NCBI RefSeq assembly: GCF_001969445.1
Contig: NZ_CP017297.1
Coordinates: 1,240,001 to 1,304,000, forward strand
From: Brachybacterium sp. P6-10-X1
GTDB lineage: Bacteria > Actinomycetota > Actinomycetes > Actinomycetales > Dermabacteraceae
Reading direction: 5' to 3'
DNA length: 64,000 nucleotides
Shown here: positions 51,418 through 61,317 of the stretch, piece after piece
Position numbering within the stretch: position 1 is the first letter of the stretch
How the letters are laid out: each line of letters opens with the position of its first letter
The notes under the pieces: model-generated
Told to the model about the DNA's origin: nothing
Seen by the model: the letters and a program-made list of their open reading frames with translations, nothing else
Databases searched by the model: none
Made by a program: the position numbers and the translations under genes

Positions 51418-51690
51418 ATGCTGAAGTTCCTCACGATCGGCGCGATCGCGCTGCTGCTGGTGCTCCGGCTGCTGCGCACCCGCGTCGGGGCCCGCCTGCT
51501 GGGCGCATCCGTGCGCGTGATGACCTTCGTCTATCTCGCGGTGCTGGTGATCACGGGGATCGTTGCGGGACTGCTGGAGCAGTGGGTGCTGCTGGGGGTC
51601 GTAGTCCTGCTGATGGTGCTCAGCGGTCTCGAGGAGCTGCGCCGCCGCGCTCGACGGCCCGCGGACGTCGCCCCGCGGTCCCGCCGCTGA
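51418..51690 (+). CDS. Small membrane protein (90 residues)
   Basis: Two to three hydrophobic segments (FLTIGAIALLLVLRLL, VMTFVYLAVLVITGIVAGLL, WVLLGVVVLLMVLSGL) followed by an Arg-rich cytoplasmic tail. No recognised family. ATG 51418 has AGGA about 9 bases upstream. Its last 71 bases overlap, tail to tail, the 3' end of the PH-domain gene on the other strand. Confidence 0.6.
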   Translation: MLKFLTIGAIALLLVLRLLRTRVGARLLGASVRVMTFVYLAVLVITGIVAGLLEQWVLLGVVVLLMVLSGLEELRRRARRPADVAPRSRR

Positions 51691-53197
51691 CCTCGATCGT
51701 CCCGCGCCGTGGAGAGATCTCGGCAGGCGAGCCGGGCTCCCTGACCTGCAGGTGCTCCCAGACTGTCCCCGCGCTCGTCATCATCGCCCGGGCCTGCTCC
51801 GCGTCGACGTCCGGGAGGCGGAAGGCGCCGCTGCCGCCCGCCGACGTCGCCACGACGGTGCCCAGGCCCGCTCGCCGCTGGAAGGGCGAGCGGGTGAGAA
51901 TCCAGCCCAGCACGTCATCCCGCCCCAGCACATCGGTGCGGCGGAAGAGGGATCCCTTGCGCAGCGCGACGTGGCGGTCGGTCACCCGGTGCCCCAGCCC
52001 ACGGGAGTTGTCGCGGGCGAGCACAGCCGTGACGAGGGCGAGGACGACAGCGGTGAGGGCCGGGATCCACCACAGCGACGGCAAGACCAGAGCAGGGATC
52101 ACGGCGAGGACGACCCCGGCCGCGGTGAGCATCCCGGCGCGCAGGAACCGCTTGCGTCGCGCCGCGGGCGGGTGGGGACGCAGAGCGTCGGGCACCGGGG
52201 CACCGAGGATCGTCCCGGCCACCTCTGCACCGACCGCTCGGGGCGCGGCGGGCACCAGCGCCGGCGACTGCGCGTTCTTCTGGTCCCCCTCCGGGGCCTT
52301 CACGCCGACGGCGATCACATCGAGCCGGGCACCGCCCGCTCGGCGCAGCCCCAGCGGCTCGTGCAGCGTCACTCCCCGCAGCCGGTCGCCGTCGAACACG
52401 GTGGACCGGCTGACCAGCAGGCCGCGCCGCAGATCGAGGGACCCGTCCTCATGCCGTCCGAGCCGATACCCCCACCAACCCTCGACATAGACCGCGAGAG
52501 TGCCGACGGCCCCGATCACGACGGCGCCCACGATCAGCACCAGAAGCAGGACGAGCAGGGGGACCGCTCCCGCCGACGTCCCGAGCCAGGCGATCAGCAC
52601 GGGCACCGCCTGGAACCAGTCGAAGACCTGGAGGACGACACCGTAGGCGGCCAGGCCGATCGCCCCGGTGGCCAGGGAGCTGATCCGGACCGCGCCCCGG
52701 GCGGATGCGGTGGACACCGAGATCGTGGCCAGTCCGAAGGAGCGCTGGAGCGGTCCCCGATCCAGGTCGACGGTCTGGATGCGGGACAGCGGCGCCGCGC
52801 GCCACTCCTCCCACAGCAGCCCGGTGCGACTGTAGAGCGCGTCGTCGGTCGCCTCCCAGCGGTGGATCCGCCACCGCACCCGGGGCACCACCAGCGCCAG
52901 TGGGATGGCGAGCACGAGCAGCACCAGCGCCGCGCTCAGCAGCCACCAGCGGGCGGGTCCGATGAGCAGGCCGAGCAGGGCGAGGGTGAGGACAGGAACC
53001 ACGGCCCACAGCACGGTCTGGGTCGCCCACCAGGCGCGGCACCGAGGATCGACCCGATCTCGGGGCGGTCGCAGGCCGAAGCCCGCGGTTCCCGGTGCCG
53101 ACGCAGCAGGCTCGGTGGTGCCGGGCCGGAGGAGGTCGGCGCGGGACGTCGTCTCCGTCGGCGGTCTCGGCGAACCGGAGGCGGGAGGCGAGGTCAT
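51620..53197 (-). CDS. PH-domain membrane protein, YdbT type
   Basis: 525 residues from ATG 53197. Several paired membrane spans alternate with bacterial PH (bPH2) modules: RRWEATDDALYSRTGLLWEEWRAAPLSRIQ-like region near residues 95-160, the second near 265-310 (LGRHEDGSLDLRRGLLVSRS) and the third near 430-490 (RVTDRHVALRKGSLFRRTDV). YdbT proteins usually pair with a small YdbS partner; none is adjacent. Function unclear, possibly envelope stress or bacteriocin resistance. The final 71 bases overlap the opposite small membrane gene. Confidence 0.82.
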   Translation of the reverse strand: MTSPPASGSPRPPTETTSRADLLRPGTTEPAASAPGTAGFGLRPPRDRVDPRCRAWWATQTVLWAVVPVLTLALLGLLIGPARWWLLSAALVLLVLAIPLALVVPRVRWRIHRWEATDDALYSRTGLLWEEWRAAPLSRIQTVDLDRGPLQRSFGLATISVSTASARGAVRISSLATGAIGLAAYGVVLQVFDWFQAVPVLIAWLGTSAGAVPLLVLLLVLIVGAVVIGAVGTLAVYVEGWWGYRLGRHEDGSLDLRRGLLVSRSTVFDGDRLRGVTLHEPLGLRRAGGARLDVIAVGVKAPEGDQKNAQSPALVPAAPRAVGAEVAGTILGAPVPDALRPHPPAARRKRFLRAGMLTAAGVVLAVIPALVLPSLWWIPALTAVVLALVTAVLARDNSRGLGHRVTDRHVALRKGSLFRRTDVLGRDDVLGWILTRSPFQRRAGLGTVVATSAGGSGAFRLPDVDAEQARAMMTSAGTVWEHLQVREPGSPAEISPRRGTIEVSGGTAGRRPRAVERGGAAPRDR

Positions 53198-53297
53198 GGC
53201 GGCTCTCGATCGATGAGCGGTCCCACGGGTCGGTCCACCACGGTACCGGCCCCGCTCTCCTATGACGAGAGCCGAGGCGCCTGATCCCGGCCGGTCC

Positions 53298-53825
53298 TCA
53301 GAGCTCGCGGCCGTGCCGCGAGGACCCCTCGTTCCACTGGGCCACCCATTCCGGCAGCTGACGGTGATCGGGCACCGGACCGGCCAGGTCCAGCACCTCC
53401 TCCATCGGCACCGAGCCACCGGACCTGCGCAGGAAGCGGGCCCGTACGACGGCGTCGGCCACCACCTCGCCGTCGCGGCGGAAGACCTGCTCCATGTAGA
53501 CCTAGCGATCGTCGTGCCCGAGGACGCGGGACGCCAGGTCGAAGCGCTCCCACAGCTGAAAGGACCTGCGATAGGTGATGCTCTGCCCGGCCACCACCGG
53601 GTACCAGCCCTGCTCGGTGATGCGTCGCCAGAACCTCGACCGCAGCATCAGGTCCATGCGGCCCAGATCCATGAGGGTGAGGTAGCGGCCGTTGTTCATG
53701 TGCCGCATCACGTCGAGGTCCGAGGGATTGACCCGGAACCTCACGCGCGAGGTGTCCCACAGGCTCGGGCGGCTGCGGAAGCGCACGCGGATCATGAAGA
53801 CCAGCAGGCGGAAGTACAGGTTCAC
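53298..53825 (-). pseudogene. Thioesterase-family gene interrupted by an in-frame TAG
   Basis: GTG 53825 (GGAGGAA upstream) opens a hotdog-fold thioesterase: SDLDVMRHMNNGRYLTLMDLGRMDL with the conserved HMNNG, then SITYRRSFQLWERFDLASRVLGHDDR. A TAG at 53502-53504 stops it. The same frame then continues VYMEQVFRRDGEVVADAVVR to a TGA at 53298, which is exactly the missing C-terminal half. One base change (TAG to TGG, Trp) restores about 175 residues. Either a nonsense mutation or a sequencing error. Confidence 0.85.
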
Positions 53826-53989: not shown

Positions 53990-53995
53990 TACTGT
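53990..53995 (+). promoter_or_regulatory. -10 element of the orn-AGE gene (leaderless)
   Basis: TACTGT followed by GGCCCG and the GTG at 54002; predicts a leaderless transcript and supports this start. Confidence 0.55.
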
Positions 53996-54001
53996 GGCCC
54001 G

Positions 54002-55903
54002 GTGACTTCCAGCTCCTCCCGCGCCCTCAACGACCGCATCATCTGGGTCGACTGCGAGATGACCGGCCTCGACAAGCAGCGCGATGCGCTCGTCGAGATC
54101 GCCGTGCTCGTGACCGACGCCGATCTGAACATCCTCGGGGACGGCGTCGACGTCGTCATCAAGCCACCGGCCGATTCGCTGGAGGGAATGGATCCCTTCG
54201 TGGTGAACATGCACACCGTCTCCGGCCTCCTCGAGGAGCTCGACGACGGGGTGACCCTCGAGCAGGCGCAGGAGCTGTGTCTTCAGTACGTGCGCGAGTT
54301 CTGCCCCGAGCCGGGCAAGGCACCGCTGGCCGGCAACAGCGTCGGCACCGACCGGGTGTTCCTGGACCGGGACGTGCCCGAGCTCGCGTCCTGGCTGTCC
54401 TACCGCACCATCGACGTCTCCAGCTTCAAGGAGCTCGCCAAGCGCTGGTTCCCGCGGGTGTACTACAACATTCCCGCCAAGCACGGCGGGCACCGGGCCC
54501 TGGCCGACATCCGCGAGTCCATCCAGGAGTTGAAGTACTACCGGGAGGTGCTGCTGGTCGACGAGCCCGGGCCCACCACCGCCCAGGCGCAGGCGGCCTC
54601 GCGCACCTTCGAGCTCTCCGCCGAGCCGACGCCCGGCGCAGATGTGCCCGCCCCGGGCCCCTACGTCCCCTGGCTGGATCGCGCCTCCCATCGCAGCTGG
54701 CTCGAGGGCGAGGGCGATGAGCTGCTCGTGTTCGGCTCCGAGTCCGTGCGCGAGGACGGCGGCTTCGCCTGGCTCGACGAGAACGGCGCACCGGACCTCT
54801 CGCGCCCCTCCGAGCTGTGGATCACCTGCCGGATGACGCACAGCTTCGCGCTCGGCCATCTGCTGGGCCGGCCCGACTTCGGGCGCTTCGCCGATCACGG
54901 CATCGCCTCGCTGCGCGGGGTGTTCCACGACGGCGAGCACGGCGGCTGGTTCGCCTCGGTCGCGGCGGGCAGGCCGGTCGACGACTCGAAGCAGGCCTAT
55001 GCGCACGCCTTCGTGGTCCTCGCCGCGTCCTCGGCCGTCGCCGCCGGCAGGCCCGGTGCCGCCGAGCTGCTCGACGAGGCGCTGACGGTGCTGGATCAGA
55101 AGTTCTTCGACGAGGACGCCGCGATGAGCGTGGACACCTTCGACCGTGCCTTCGGCGCGTGCGAGGAGTACCGCGGGATCAACGCGAACATGCACACGGT
55201 CGAGGCCCTGCTGGCCGCGGCCGACGTGACCGGGCAGCGGCGCTGGCTGGATCGCGCGGTGGGCATCATGACCCGGGCGATCGACGAGTTCGCCCGCGGC
55301 AACGACTGGGCGCTGCCCGAGCACTACGACACCTCCTGGACCCCGCTGCTGGACTACAACCGCGACGAGCCGAACCACCCGTTCCGCCCCTACGGCGCGA
55401 CGATCGGGCACTGGATCGAGTGGGCCCGCCTGGTCCTGCACGGCCGGGCCGCGCTGATCACCGCCGAGGGTGAAGCCCCGGAGTGGATGCTCGAGGCGGC
55501 CACGGCGCTGATGGAGAAGGCCGCCGCGAGCTTCGGGGCCGACGGAGAACCCGGTTTCGTCTACACCGTGGACTGGGACGGCACCCCCGTGGCGCGCGAG
55601 CGCATGCACTGGGTGGCCGCCGAGGCCGTCGGCGCGGCCGCGGTGATGCACCAGGTGACCGGCGAGCGGATCTGGGCCGAGCGCTACGAGCAGTGGTGGG
55701 AGTACATCTCCACCTACCTGCTGGATCCCGGGACGGGCTCCTGGTTCCACGAGCTCGACGCGGACAACGAGCCGCAGGGCGTGACCTGGCCCGGGAAGCC
55801 GGACATCTACCACGCCTTCCAGGCGACGCTCATCCCCCGCCTGCCGGTGGCGCCGACGCTGGCCGCGGCACTGCGCGACGGGCTGCTCGACCGGGATCTC
55901 TGA
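54002..55903 (+). CDS. orn: Oligoribonuclease fused to an AGE/YihS-type sugar isomerase
   Basis: 633 residues in one frame. Residues 1-190 are a full oligoribonuclease with the DEDDh exonuclease residues D17, E19, D117, H164 and D169 (VDCEMTG, DRVFLDRD, HRALADIRES). It degrades 2-5 nt RNAs and pGpG. A Pro/Ala-rich linker (about 190-221) leads to a complete N-acylglucosamine 2-epimerase/YihS fold (from YVPWLDRASHRSWLEGEG; GVFHDGEHGGWF, INANMHTVEALL, PGKPDIYHAFQATL), a family of aldose-ketose isomerases and epimerases. No stop or internal Shine-Dalgarno separates them. GTG 54002 is preferred over the frame start at 53891. Confidence 0.9.
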   Translation: MTSSSSRALNDRIIWVDCEMTGLDKQRDALVEIAVLVTDADLNILGDGVDVVIKPPADSLEGMDPFVVNMHTVSGLLEELDDGVTLEQAQELCLQYVREFCPEPGKAPLAGNSVGTDRVFLDRDVPELASWLSYRTIDVSSFKELAKRWFPRVYYNIPAKHGGHRALADIRESIQELKYYREVLLVDEPGPTTAQAQAASRTFELSAEPTPGADVPAPGPYVPWLDRASHRSWLEGEGDELLVFGSESVREDGGFAWLDENGAPDLSRPSELWITCRMTHSFALGHLLGRPDFGRFADHGIASLRGVFHDGEHGGWFASVAAGRPVDDSKQAYAHAFVVLAASSAVAAGRPGAAELLDEALTVLDQKFFDEDAAMSVDTFDRAFGACEEYRGINANMHTVEALLAAADVTGQRRWLDRAVGIMTRAIDEFARGNDWALPEHYDTSWTPLLDYNRDEPNHPFRPYGATIGHWIEWARLVLHGRAALITAEGEAPEWMLEAATALMEKAAASFGADGEPGFVYTVDWDGTPVARERMHWVAAEAVGAAAVMHQVTGERIWAERYEQWWEYISTYLLDPGTGSWFHELDADNEPQGVTWPGKPDIYHAFQATLIPRLPVAPTLAAALRDGLLDRDL

Positions 55904-56515: not shown

Positions 56516-56588
56516 GTGGTCGTAGCTCAGTTGGTAGAGCTCCTGGTTGTGGTCCAGGCGGTCGCGGGTTCAAATCCCGTCGATCACC
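56516..56588 (+). tRNA. tRNA-His, anticodon GTG
   Basis: 73 nucleotides from acceptor GTGGTCG/CGATCAC to discriminator C73. Anticodon stem CCTGG/CCAGG with loop TTGTGGT. The extra 5' G typical of tRNA-His (G-1) is encoded at 56515 and would pair with C73; CCA is encoded at 56589-56591. Followed by a remnant of an integrated element, so it probably served as an attachment site. Confidence 0.95.
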
Positions 56589-56593
56589 CCAAG

Positions 56594-58797: not shown

Positions 58798-61317
58798 ATG
58801 GCACAGTTGCCGGATCGTGCAGACATCGTCGTCATCGGAGCCGGGGTGGTCGGCAATGCCGCCGTCAGCCACCTGGCCGATCTGGGATGGCGCAGCATCG
58901 TCCAGATCGACAAGGGACCGCTGCCGGACCCGGGAGGATCCACGGGCCACGCCTCGAACTTCGTCTTCCCCGTCGACCACTCCAAGGAGGTCACCGACCT
59001 CACGGTGGACTCCCTGCGCCAGTACGAGGAGCTCGGGGTGCTCTCGCTGTGCGGAGGCATCGAGGTCGCCCGCAGCCCGGAGCGGATGCAGGAGCTGACA
59101 CGACGGATGACGTCGGCCCGGTCCTGGGGCGTCGAGGCGCACCTGATCTCCCCCGCCGAGATCCAGCAGCTGGTGCCGTACTGCGATGCGAGCCTGCTGA
59201 TCGGTGGCTTCCACACCCCGACCGGTGCGATCGTCGACCCGATCCGGGCCGGTGAGCTGCTGCGCGAGCGCGCCGAGGCCGCCGGCGCGCTGACCACCTG
59301 CGCGGAGACCGAGGTGCTCGATCTGTTGGTCGAGGACGGGCGGATCCGCCGCGTGGTCACCGATGCCGGCGAGATCGAGGCGGAGACCGTGATCATCGCC
59401 TGCGGGGTGTGGAGCCCGCGCGTCGCCGCCCTGGCCGGAGCGGCCATCCCCCTGACCCCGGCGGTCCACCAGATGATCGACGTCGGGCCGATCCCGCAGC
59501 TGGAGCGGACCGATCAGTGGATCAGCTTCCCGCTGCTGCGCGACATGGACAGCCTGATGTACGAGCGCCAGCGCGGGCCCGACCTCGAGATCGGGTCCTA
59601 TGCGCACCGACCCCTGCTGCACCACCCCGACGAGATCCCGCCCGTCGGCGACCATCCCGGGCAGGCGACGCCGACCAGCTTCCCCTTCACCGAGGACGAC
59701 TTCACACTGCAGCTGCAGCAGGCCCAGCAGATGTTCCCCGACCTGCTCACCGATCCCGAGCCGCCCCGCACGGCGGCGCTGAACGGCCTGCTCTCGCTGA
59801 CCCCCGACGGCGGGGCCGTGGTCGGCGAGATGCCGGAAGTGGCCGGGCTGTGGTCGGCCGCCGCGGTCTGGATCAAGGAGGCAGCCGGGGTCGGGCGGAT
59901 GCTCGCAGAGCTGATCACCGACGGGACCAGCGAGATCGATCCGCACGGTTCCGACATCGCCCGCTTCGCCCCGGCCCTGCGCACGTCGTCCCACGTGCTC
60001 TCCCGCGCCGCCGAGGGCTTCCCGAAGATCTACGGGATCACCCATCCGCGCGAGCAGTGGCTCTCGGACCGCCCCCTGCGCACCAGTCCCTTCCATCCCC
60101 GCACCGAGGCGCTGGGCGCGCGGTACTTCGAGGCCGCCGGGTGGGAGCGCCCGCAGTGGTACGAGGCCAATGCCGACCTGCTCGCGGAGTACGGCGACCG
60201 GATCGACCAGCGCACGGCCGAGTGGGACCGGCGCTGGTGGTCCCCGATCATCGAGGCCGAGCACCTGGCGATGCGGGACCGGGTCGCGATGGTCGATCTG
60301 GGCGCCTTCGCGATCTTCGACGTCCACGGCCCCGCAGCGGTGGACTATCTCGAGCAGCTGGCCGTGGCCCGGATCGACGTGCGCGTCGGCCGGGTGGTCT
60401 ACACGCCGCTGCTGACCCCGGCGGGCACCTTCCGCTCGGACCTGACGATCGTTCGCCGCGGCGAGGAGGACTTCCGGATCATCACCGGCGGCGCCGAGGG
60501 CTCGCGGGACCTGGCCTGGTTCCGCGCCCATCTCCCGCAGGACGGCTCGGTGCAGCTGACCGACGCCACCTCGGCCGTGACCACCCTGGGCCTGTGGGGA
60601 CCGCGGGCGCGTGATCTGCTGGAACGGATCACCGAACACGATCTGACCTCCGAAGCCTTCGGCTTCGGGACCGCCCAGGACGTGCAGCTGGGCTCGGTGC
60701 CCGCCTCCCTGCTGCGGATCTCCTACGTCGGCGAGCTCGGCTGGGAGATCCACCTGCCCACCGAGCATGGCCTGCGCGTCTGGGACATGCTCTGGGGAAA
60801 CGGCCAGGACCTGGGCCTCATCGCCGCGGGCATCGGTGTCTACGGCACCACCGGACGGCTCGAGAAGGGCTACCGCCTGATGGGCGCCGAGCTGAACGCC
60901 GAGTACGACCCCGTGGAGGCCGATCTCGCACTGCCGAAGGTCAAGACGCACGACTTCGTCGGCAAACAGGCCTACCTCGCCGCGCGGGCCGCGGACCCGG
61001 CGGCCCATCTGTGCACGCTGGCGGTCGATCCGGTCGTCGAGGACACCGAGCCGCGCTGCATGACCGGCGGCGAACCGGTCCTGACCCCCGAGGGCGATCC
61101 GATCCTCGATGCGAAGGGCCGACGCTCCTACGTCGCCTCGACCGGGCCGGCCCCGTCGCTCGGACGCTACCTGCTGATGGCATACCTGCCCCCGCAGCAC
61201 GCCGCCGAAGGTACGGCGCTGCAGGTCGAGTACCTGGGGCGGCGCCATCCGGTCACCGTGCTGACCGTCGGGCGCACTCCCGCCTTCGACCCGCAGGACC
61301 TGCGGATGAAGGGGTGA
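58798..61317 (+). CDS. FAD-dependent dimethylglycine/sarcosine dehydrogenase-like protein with GcvT domain
   Basis: 839 residues. An N-terminal DAO oxidoreductase domain has the FAD motif IVVIGAGVVGNAAV (residues about 10-23) and GSTGHASN, where His51 could be the covalent flavin ligand as in related dehydrogenases. A linker domain precedes a C-terminal GcvT-type aminomethyltransferase region (from HLAMRDRVAMVDLG; GELGWEIHLPTEH, LEKGYRLMGAEL). Such enzymes oxidise N-methyl groups of dimethylglycine, sarcosine or related amines and hand the carbon to tetrahydrofolate. ATG 58798 follows GGAGG. The substrate is inferred by family only. Confidence 0.9.
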   Translation: MAQLPDRADIVVIGAGVVGNAAVSHLADLGWRSIVQIDKGPLPDPGGSTGHASNFVFPVDHSKEVTDLTVDSLRQYEELGVLSLCGGIEVARSPERMQELTRRMTSARSWGVEAHLISPAEIQQLVPYCDASLLIGGFHTPTGAIVDPIRAGELLRERAEAAGALTTCAETEVLDLLVEDGRIRRVVTDAGEIEAETVIIACGVWSPRVAALAGAAIPLTPAVHQMIDVGPIPQLERTDQWISFPLLRDMDSLMYERQRGPDLEIGSYAHRPLLHHPDEIPPVGDHPGQATPTSFPFTEDDFTLQLQQAQQMFPDLLTDPEPPRTAALNGLLSLTPDGGAVVGEMPEVAGLWSAAAVWIKEAAGVGRMLAELITDGTSEIDPHGSDIARFAPALRTSSHVLSRAAEGFPKIYGITHPREQWLSDRPLRTSPFHPRTEALGARYFEAAGWERPQWYEANADLLAEYGDRIDQRTAEWDRRWWSPIIEAEHLAMRDRVAMVDLGAFAIFDVHGPAAVDYLEQLAVARIDVRVGRVVYTPLLTPAGTFRSDLTIVRRGEEDFRIITGGAEGSRDLAWFRAHLPQDGSVQLTDATSAVTTLGLWGPRARDLLERITEHDLTSEAFGFGTAQDVQLGSVPASLLRISYVGELGWEIHLPTEHGLRVWDMLWGNGQDLGLIAAGIGVYGTTGRLEKGYRLMGAELNAEYDPVEADLALPKVKTHDFVGKQAYLAARAADPAAHLCTLAVDPVVEDTEPRCMTGGEPVLTPEGDPILDAKGRRSYVASTGPAPSLGRYLLMAYLPPQHAAEGTALQVEYLGRRHPVTVLTVGRTPAFDPQDLRMKG

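Follow-up and report, generated by a model that had tools for sequence, protein, structure and literature searches.

An oligoribonuclease and a YihS-type sugar isomerase joined in one reading frame in Brachybacterium

Introduction

Within the window, the whole stretch of 64,000 nucleotides of Brachybacterium DNA analysed here, one open frame appears to encode both an oligoribonuclease (Orn) and a sugar isomerase of the AGE superfamily. This raises the question of whether the two are truly one protein, how they came to be joined, and whether either activity bears on the other. A preliminary description had offered two readings: a functional fusion that couples RNA or c-di-GMP turnover to carbohydrate metabolism, or two neighbouring genes merged by the loss of a stop codon. 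The comparisons reported below make it likely, in our judgement, that the product is a bifunctional single chain in which Orn carries a tethered YihS-type isomerase, derived from joined neighbour genes, with independent sites and 1:1 co-synthesis.

One reading frame encodes two complete enzymes

The gene is one GTG-started frame without an internal stop, so the coordinates and the single polypeptide of the preliminary description are correct. Its parts are as follows.

54002 to 55903, + strand: fused gene for Orn and the YihS-type isomerase, 633 aa and a TGA stop (open reading frame, Pfam, NCBIfam, family comparison)
54035 to 54562, + strand: oligoribonuclease core, aa 12-187, with D17, E19, D117, H164 and D169 (Pfam and NCBIfam, alignment to 7wik and 9f7m)
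54563 to 54619, + strand: actinobacterial Orn C-terminal tail, aa 188-206, with a modelled helix at 193-202 (alignment to aa 200, model, excerpt of PMC9676404)
54620 to 54667, + strand: fusion-specific linker, aa 207-222, Ala/Pro-rich and predicted to be disordered (pLDDT, column variability, length variation)
54668 to 55891, + strand: YihS-type AGE-superfamily isomerase, aa 223-630, with R277, H398, H470, E473 and H604 (Pfam, structure match, alignment)

Pfam matched RNase_T at aa 14-176 (E 2.4e-23) and GlcNAc_2-epim at aa 253-608 (E 4.2e-112), the latter over the entire profile (1-347 of 347). Along the chain, Orn is followed by the tail helix, the short linker and a complete YihS-type isomerase. 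A single AlphaFold2 monomer model, built from 38 sequences, had a mean pLDDT of 89.3 and contained segments below 50 only at aa 1-9 and 206-220. Both enzymes had been described as complete, and this is borne out: all five catalytic residues of Orn are present, as are the full epimerase profile and the five isomerase residues listed above.

The fusion is fixed in the genus

We searched 47 genomes of the family, 38 of them Brachybacterium and nine from other genera. The same C-terminal extension of Orn, which the preliminary description had proposed looking for in related genomes, was found as a fused orn-isomerase gene in 37 of the 38 Brachybacterium genomes, and in all 37 readable cases the junction was open and in frame. 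The remaining genome, G006 (88% complete, 750 contigs), gave no match in the family search. A split orn and isomerase was observed in none of the 37 genomes read. Four of the 37 copies were incomplete: those of G001, G003 and G005 are truncated where their contigs stop, while that of G022 carries a frameshift and TGA near aa 530, within the isomerase and outside the linker, in a genome rated 85% complete.

The G022 copy, one in 37 and from that 85%-complete genome, is what an assembly error or a decaying pseudogene would have in its favour. The same fusion nevertheless recurs in many assemblies at 75-97% identity over its full length, with intact catalytic residues and low pN/pS in both domains. 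Such an explanation is refuted for the genus as a whole, and we give it next to no credence here. A lost stop specific to one strain, or a read error, is ruled out by the 37 fused Brachybacterium genomes. Because the fusion is fixed in the genus with both catalytic sites intact, it is neither a lost-stop accident confined to one strain nor a read error, in keeping with the original preference for a real fusion.

The oligoribonuclease half and its C-terminal tail

The Orn half scored 241.9 bits against the NCBIfam oligoribonuclease model (cut-off 106), which places it in that curated family. The DEDDh set was kept in all 38 fused copies (G057, a fused genome from another genus described below, included), in all eight unfused copies of the family and in all 13 outgroup copies. 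By alignment these residues equal D9, E11, D110, H157 and D162 of M. smegmatis Orn, which are its active-site residues according to the excerpted text of PMC9676404. Pooled pN/pS was 0.26 in the Orn core and 0.33 in the isomerase domain across 33 of the 37 genus genomes (the incomplete G001, G003, G005 and G022, and also G057, were left out); the value pools non-independent pairs with isomerase dS <0.8 and is descriptive, with no test attached. These ratios indicate that both the Orn core and the isomerase are under purifying selection.

The solved Orns nearest in sequence are those of M. smegmatis (7wik) and Blastococcus (9f7m), which cover about aa 9-204 and are also the best Orn matches of the model by E-value in Foldseek, at 52-56% identity. 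They share with the fused protein the DEDDh residues, the core length and a PGP-(S/T)-x C-terminal tail, and differ in that the chain here runs past the tail into a linker and a second enzyme. The tail helix corresponds, by alignment and by the partial account in PMC9676404, to the dimer-clasping alpha10 of M. smegmatis Orn. That helix (181-198) lies against the partner subunit in a handshake-like arrangement, adding about 1000 square angstroms of buried surface, and an orn deletion in M. smegmatis was complemented by Orn lacking 186-209, but not by Orn lacking 181-209 (same excerpt of PMC9676404). The unfused Orns of the family carry the same C-terminal tail in the alignment, and over aa 188-206 the pooled pN/pS in the 33 genus genomes was 0.45. 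Foldseek superposed the model on 7wik and 9f7m with rmsd 6.3-7.6 A, versus 1.7-2.6 A on human REXO2 and Coxiella Orn; the tail placement of the actinobacterial crystals is thus not reproduced by the monomer model.

A genome search found one Orn match in the window's own genome. Because this is the only match, with no DHH-type substitute in the genome, the isomerase is welded to what is probably an important housekeeping enzyme. As a separate observation, a second, distant Orn-like exonuclease of 38-39% identity occurs in two family genomes, G023 (C2:1707289-1707873, L136) and G058 (C13:382789-383301, L135).

The preliminary description had offered, within one of its readings, a coupling of c-di-GMP turnover to carbohydrate metabolism, and this idea fails in the genus: GGDEF domains were found in none of the 38 Brachybacterium genomes and in one of the 47 family genomes (G058, unfused), and so the mark of a c-di-GMP signalling component, a GGDEF domain in the same genome, is missing. 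The domain search likewise found neither DAC (c-di-AMP cyclase) nor DHH (NrnA-type) domains in any of the 47 family genomes; GGDEF, DAC and DHH made up this second-messenger screen. Coupling to c-di-GMP or c-di-AMP is ruled out for a genus lacking GGDEF, DAC and DHH matches. Given these joint absences, the Orn half is best read as clearing RNA dimers, and not as acting in pGpG or pApA signalling. G058, the deepest-branching member of the family (orn region L183), itself has eight GGDEF matches.

The isomerase half and its YihS-type active site

YihS of E. coli and Salmonella are the nearest solved structures to aa 223-630 by sequence. The ten best Foldseek matches are all YihS chains, with rmsd 1.1-1.4 A in eight and 4.0-4.1 A in two chains of 7ag4, and the model shows the (alpha/alpha)6 barrel of the YihS-type AGE superfamily. 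Against the YihS structures 2rgk, 2afa, 2zbl and 7ag4, the structural match had 43-45% identity and a TM-score to target of 0.94-0.97, and the same R/H/H/E/H set is present in the E. coli and Salmonella enzymes. H398, H470 and H604 align with YihS H176, H248 and H383, H248 being marked by the Ala of the 7ag4 mutant. For YihS we take the residue numbers to be 55, 176, 251 and 383, which agree with counting along the alignment. Every one of the 38 fused copies (G057 included) has R277 and H398; H470 and E473 occur in all 36 copies readable there, and H604 in all 35 readable at that position.

YihS is a free-standing enzyme of a sulfoglycolysis operon, and in that pathway its subfamily isomerises sulfoquinovose, with which the PDB titles agree. 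The isomerase here differs in being fused to Orn, with no sulfoglycolysis gene among the six scanned neighbouring frames. Three active-site histidines mark the YihS subfamily and two the AGE epimerases, and the YihS subfamily interconverts mannose, fructose and related sugars (both from the excerpt of PMC7762179); on that published distinction, the three-histidine centre seen in the alignment places the isomerase in the YihS subfamily. The NCBIfam D-mannose isomerase model NF051846 scored 481.2 bits over aa 225-625, under its cut-off of 600, which leaves the protein outside that family and the sugar substrate uncertain. D-mannose isomerase belongs to the same superfamily, but the score lies under the equivalog cut-off and identity to the Marinomonas enzyme (5x32) is 26-28%. 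The most likely substrates are mannose- or fructose-like sugars.

The Pfam scan of the six neighbouring frames of the fused gene, which turned up no sulfoglycolysis genes, gave a thioesterase, a PH-domain protein, DUF4440, a DAO/GCV_T protein and a DJ-1 protein; one frame was unmatched. The DAO/GCV_T frame (58798-61317, + strand) encodes an 839-aa FAD oxidoreductase with a glycine-cleavage T-protein domain (DAO, FAO_M and GCV_T), which we take to be of the dimethylglycine/sarcosine dehydrogenase type by its domain make-up. A 599-aa frame at 51620-53419 (- strand) has two bacterial PH (bPH_2) matches.

The linker keeps its frame

The preliminary description had drawn a linker from residue 185 to 225. 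This region does join the two enzymes, but it comprises the conserved tail helix (about 188-206) and a short linker proper (about 207-222). In the AlphaFold2 monomer, aa 206-220 have pLDDT below 50. Across 33 complete genus sequences, none of the 61 linker columns is invariant, 49 of the 61 are gapped and the mean pairwise identity is 0.31; the pooled pN/pS of the linker, from 33 genus genomes, is 0.87. From Orn residue 184 to isomerase residue 223 we counted 13 different distances in the 37 genus genomes, the shortest 108 nt and the longest 216 nt, each divisible by three. If length were unconstrained, the chance that at least 12 changes, taken as independent, would all stay in frame is about two in a million. 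Because the lengths are all in frame and stop-free while the sequence drifts almost freely, it is the frame of the linker that is kept rather than its letters.

An exposed, Ala/Pro-rich segment of this kind could also be cut, and the product would then work as two enzymes. The predicted disorder and fast evolution of the linker suit such cleavage, and frame-keeping does not discriminate, since it would be expected under cleavage too. A conserved site is however absent from the linker, with no invariant column among its 61, and we consider cleavage very improbable.

Origin of the fusion from adjacent genes

Given that the fusion is shared throughout Brachybacterium, the arrangement in its relatives bears on how it arose. 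In eight of the nine family genomes from other genera, orn and the isomerase gene are separate and directly adjacent; the ninth, G057, from another genus, carries them fused. The suggestion of two merged neighbours therefore survives, stripped of the single-strain lost stop, which is excluded. Relatives with two genes, together with a stop or frameshift at the junction, had been named in advance as evidence against a fusion: the former is found in those eight genomes, the latter in none of the 37 readable genus genomes. 'Functional fusion' and 'merged neighbours' do not exclude each other for this gene.

All eight unfused relatives have AGGAG or GGAGG upstream of the isomerase start. Relative to the orn stop, this start overlaps by 4 nt in two genomes (G054, G058), comes 1 nt later in one (G056) and 4 nt later in two (G059, G060), and lies 39-44 nt past it in G052, G053 and G055. 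Among the 38 fused genomes, AGGAG or GGAGG ahead of a start codon no more than 15 codons upstream of the isomerase domain occurs in three, at three different places. The adjacent pair in Dermabacter and the other family genera is like the fused gene in its genes, their order and a leaderless-type -10 box (seven of the eight examined), and unlike it in having two reading frames, the isomerase with its own Shine-Dalgarno sequence and start.

The neighbour scan added one landmark.

56516 to 56591, + strand: tRNA-His(GTG), downstream of the fused gene

A tRNA-His lies near orn in 11 of the 13 orn loci outside the family, whereas within the family the isomerase separates orn from tRNA-His, both in the window and in one genome each of five other genera (L180-L184), the strand of the tRNA differing in two of these five stretches. 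Outside the family, orn was found beside an isomerase neither in seven loci with about 1.5 kb on each side nor in 52 with up to 5 kb. Likewise, no one place outside the family covered both domains among the matches listed (159 genomes of the order, 146 of them outside the family); the scan of genome contigs covered the best 80 of 299 matches. In a plasmid search, one of 333 records had one place covering at least 80% of the query. The plasmid candidate for a fusion, H25 from Shinella (query 104-616 in one piece, 33.9% identity, an annotated AGE gene among the 60 rows listed), is no fusion because the Orn N-terminus is missing.

Whether the fusion arose once or twice was addressed with trees. 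On the careful AGE tree (26 family and 5 outgroup rows of 43), a minimum of two changes of state is needed to account for the fused rows, and a single change suffices in none of 200 bootstrap trees; holding the fused rows together was rejected, weakly, with p-AU 0.041. A four-gene species tree grouped G057 with the unfused Dermabacter, and set Brachybacterium apart as a clade of its own (98% SH-aLRT, quick method; gyrA was used without G057, whose gyrA match is partial). The rpoB tree alone nested G057 and Dermabacter among Brachybacterium. Both histories, two fusions or a single fusion later re-split in Dermabacter, take two changes on the four-gene tree. G054, of the Dermabacter group, and G058, the deepest relative, have the same isomerase start position (within a codon) and the same 4-nt overlap, and because a re-split would have had to recreate both, two fusions are favoured. 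From these comparisons, the fusion probably arose twice, in Brachybacterium and in the G057 lineage.

The unfused isomerases of the Dermabacter group (L119, L120, L122) form a long branch of about 0.9-1.0 with catalytic residues kept; orn there is not long.

Expression of the fused gene

Upstream of the start codon we noted one further feature.

53990 to 53995, + strand: TACTGT, a -10-like TANNNT box ending 6 nt before the GTG start (family conservation of TANNNT)

A TANNNT box 6-8 nt before the GTG occurs in 45 of 45 family loci (38 fused and 7 unfused), versus 4 of the 2360 GTGs in the window. The scan took in 45 of 46 loci, leaving out G058 (its Orn motif falls outside the search pattern), and the nearest GTG was chosen by hand for G019, G053, G054 and G056; the 45 loci are related and non-independent, yet their surroundings visibly differ. 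Leaderless genes of high-GC Actinobacteria are marked by such a box some 12 bp ahead of the start codon (PMC3160421, in excerpt). Since the box is typical of that class, the fused message probably starts at its own start codon, as a leaderless transcript. The isomerase, once started from a Shine-Dalgarno site of its own, has probably come under the leaderless orn start.

A second, shorter isomerase might still be made from an internal start. Several candidate positions could serve. In 17 of the 38 fused genomes a GTG occupies isomerase position -1 and may be what is left of the old start. In three of the 38, AGGAG or GGAGG precedes a GTG that lies 9-13 codons ahead of the domain. Twelve, among them the window's genome, have a GTG or ATG 20 codons into the domain, with GAGG upstream of it. 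In 21, which do not include the window's genome, GAGGT or GGAGG precedes a start codon located in the Orn tail, 36-50 codons before the domain. Each of these, however, is found in about half of the genomes at most, and no internal isomerase start with a ribosome-binding-like motif was found at one conserved place in the 38 fused genomes. The Orn-tail motif coincides with the codons of a conserved REV of Orn, a start at +20 would cost the domain its first 20 residues, and the GTGs at -1, like the window's GTG at -8, are without such a motif. We therefore regard a separate short product as improbable.

Relationship between the two activities

Two independent active sites on one chain are the most economical mechanism, and independence of the Orn and isomerase activities, our default assumption, is the most likely state; cross-talk between them is possible. 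A regulatory fusion would go further, in that nucleotides or nanoRNA bound or released by Orn would tune the isomerase, or sugar would tune Orn, tying RNA recycling to carbon status. The best hint of this is the probable second fusion in G057, combined with the finding that none of the 37 genus genomes read has the two genes split, but adjacency alone predisposes genes to repeated fusion. Orn and isomerase also stay together in 46 of 47 family genomes (those with a match), and 66 of the 146 genomes of the order outside the family had a single match of E 1e-40 or better among the matches listed, presumably Orn without a YihS-type isomerase. The tether begins at the end of the tail helix, which clasps the other subunit in M. 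smegmatis (excerpt of PMC9676404), and nucleotides, chiefly ATP, act as allosteric activators of AGE epimerases proper (excerpt of PMC6333288). The linker, however, lacks order in the model and varies in both sequence and length, which is not what a rigid allosteric joint would show. We know of no nucleotide site in YihS-type members. Overall, we judge a regulatory fusion to be unlikely. The stronger proposal is a selected and repeatedly evolved coupling device, in which a sugar-responsive YihS-type domain adjusts nanoRNA clearance or the isomerase is adjusted by Orn products; it seems to us slightly less likely again. If true, it would connect carbon status directly, through one protein, to the final step of RNA recycling in bacteria where GGDEF and DAC domains were not found.

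Discussion

Returning to the bifunctional single chain with independent sites, we propose the following course of events. In the family ancestor, an isomerase gene would have come between orn and tRNA-His, with its own Shine-Dalgarno sequence and a start overlapping or near the orn stop. The orn stop or frame would then have been lost and the genes joined, once in Brachybacterium and probably again in the G057 lineage. The start that the isomerase once had would have decayed after this joining, leaving isomerase synthesis dependent on the leaderless orn start. In the resulting protein, an Orn dimer would degrade 2-mer RNAs to mononucleotides, each subunit holding a YihS-type aldose-ketose isomerase by a flexible linker; the two active sites would most likely be independent, and the fusion would fix 1:1 co-synthesis. 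Catalysis, dimer geometry, leaderless transcription, the substrate and the independence of both activities are what we infer here.

In the titles and abstract openings of the open-licence literature, we found no published account of an Orn-isomerase fusion. Both enzymes are known, and as far as these searches reach, the Orn and YihS-type architecture is a new combination within that literature; both domains may well be named already in automatic annotations of these proteins. The architecture, its distribution, the conservation of residues, the frame constraint and the adjacency in relatives are results at the level of sequence.

For the family, these loci set the stages side by side: non-adjacent genes outside it, an adjacent or overlapping pair within it, and fusions of probably two origins. 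They offer a natural experiment on fused enzymes that have no metabolic relation, asking whether such fusions serve a function or arise neutrally as operon by-products. They also carry a warning that the Orn of Brachybacterium is not to be taken for a c-di-GMP enzyme.
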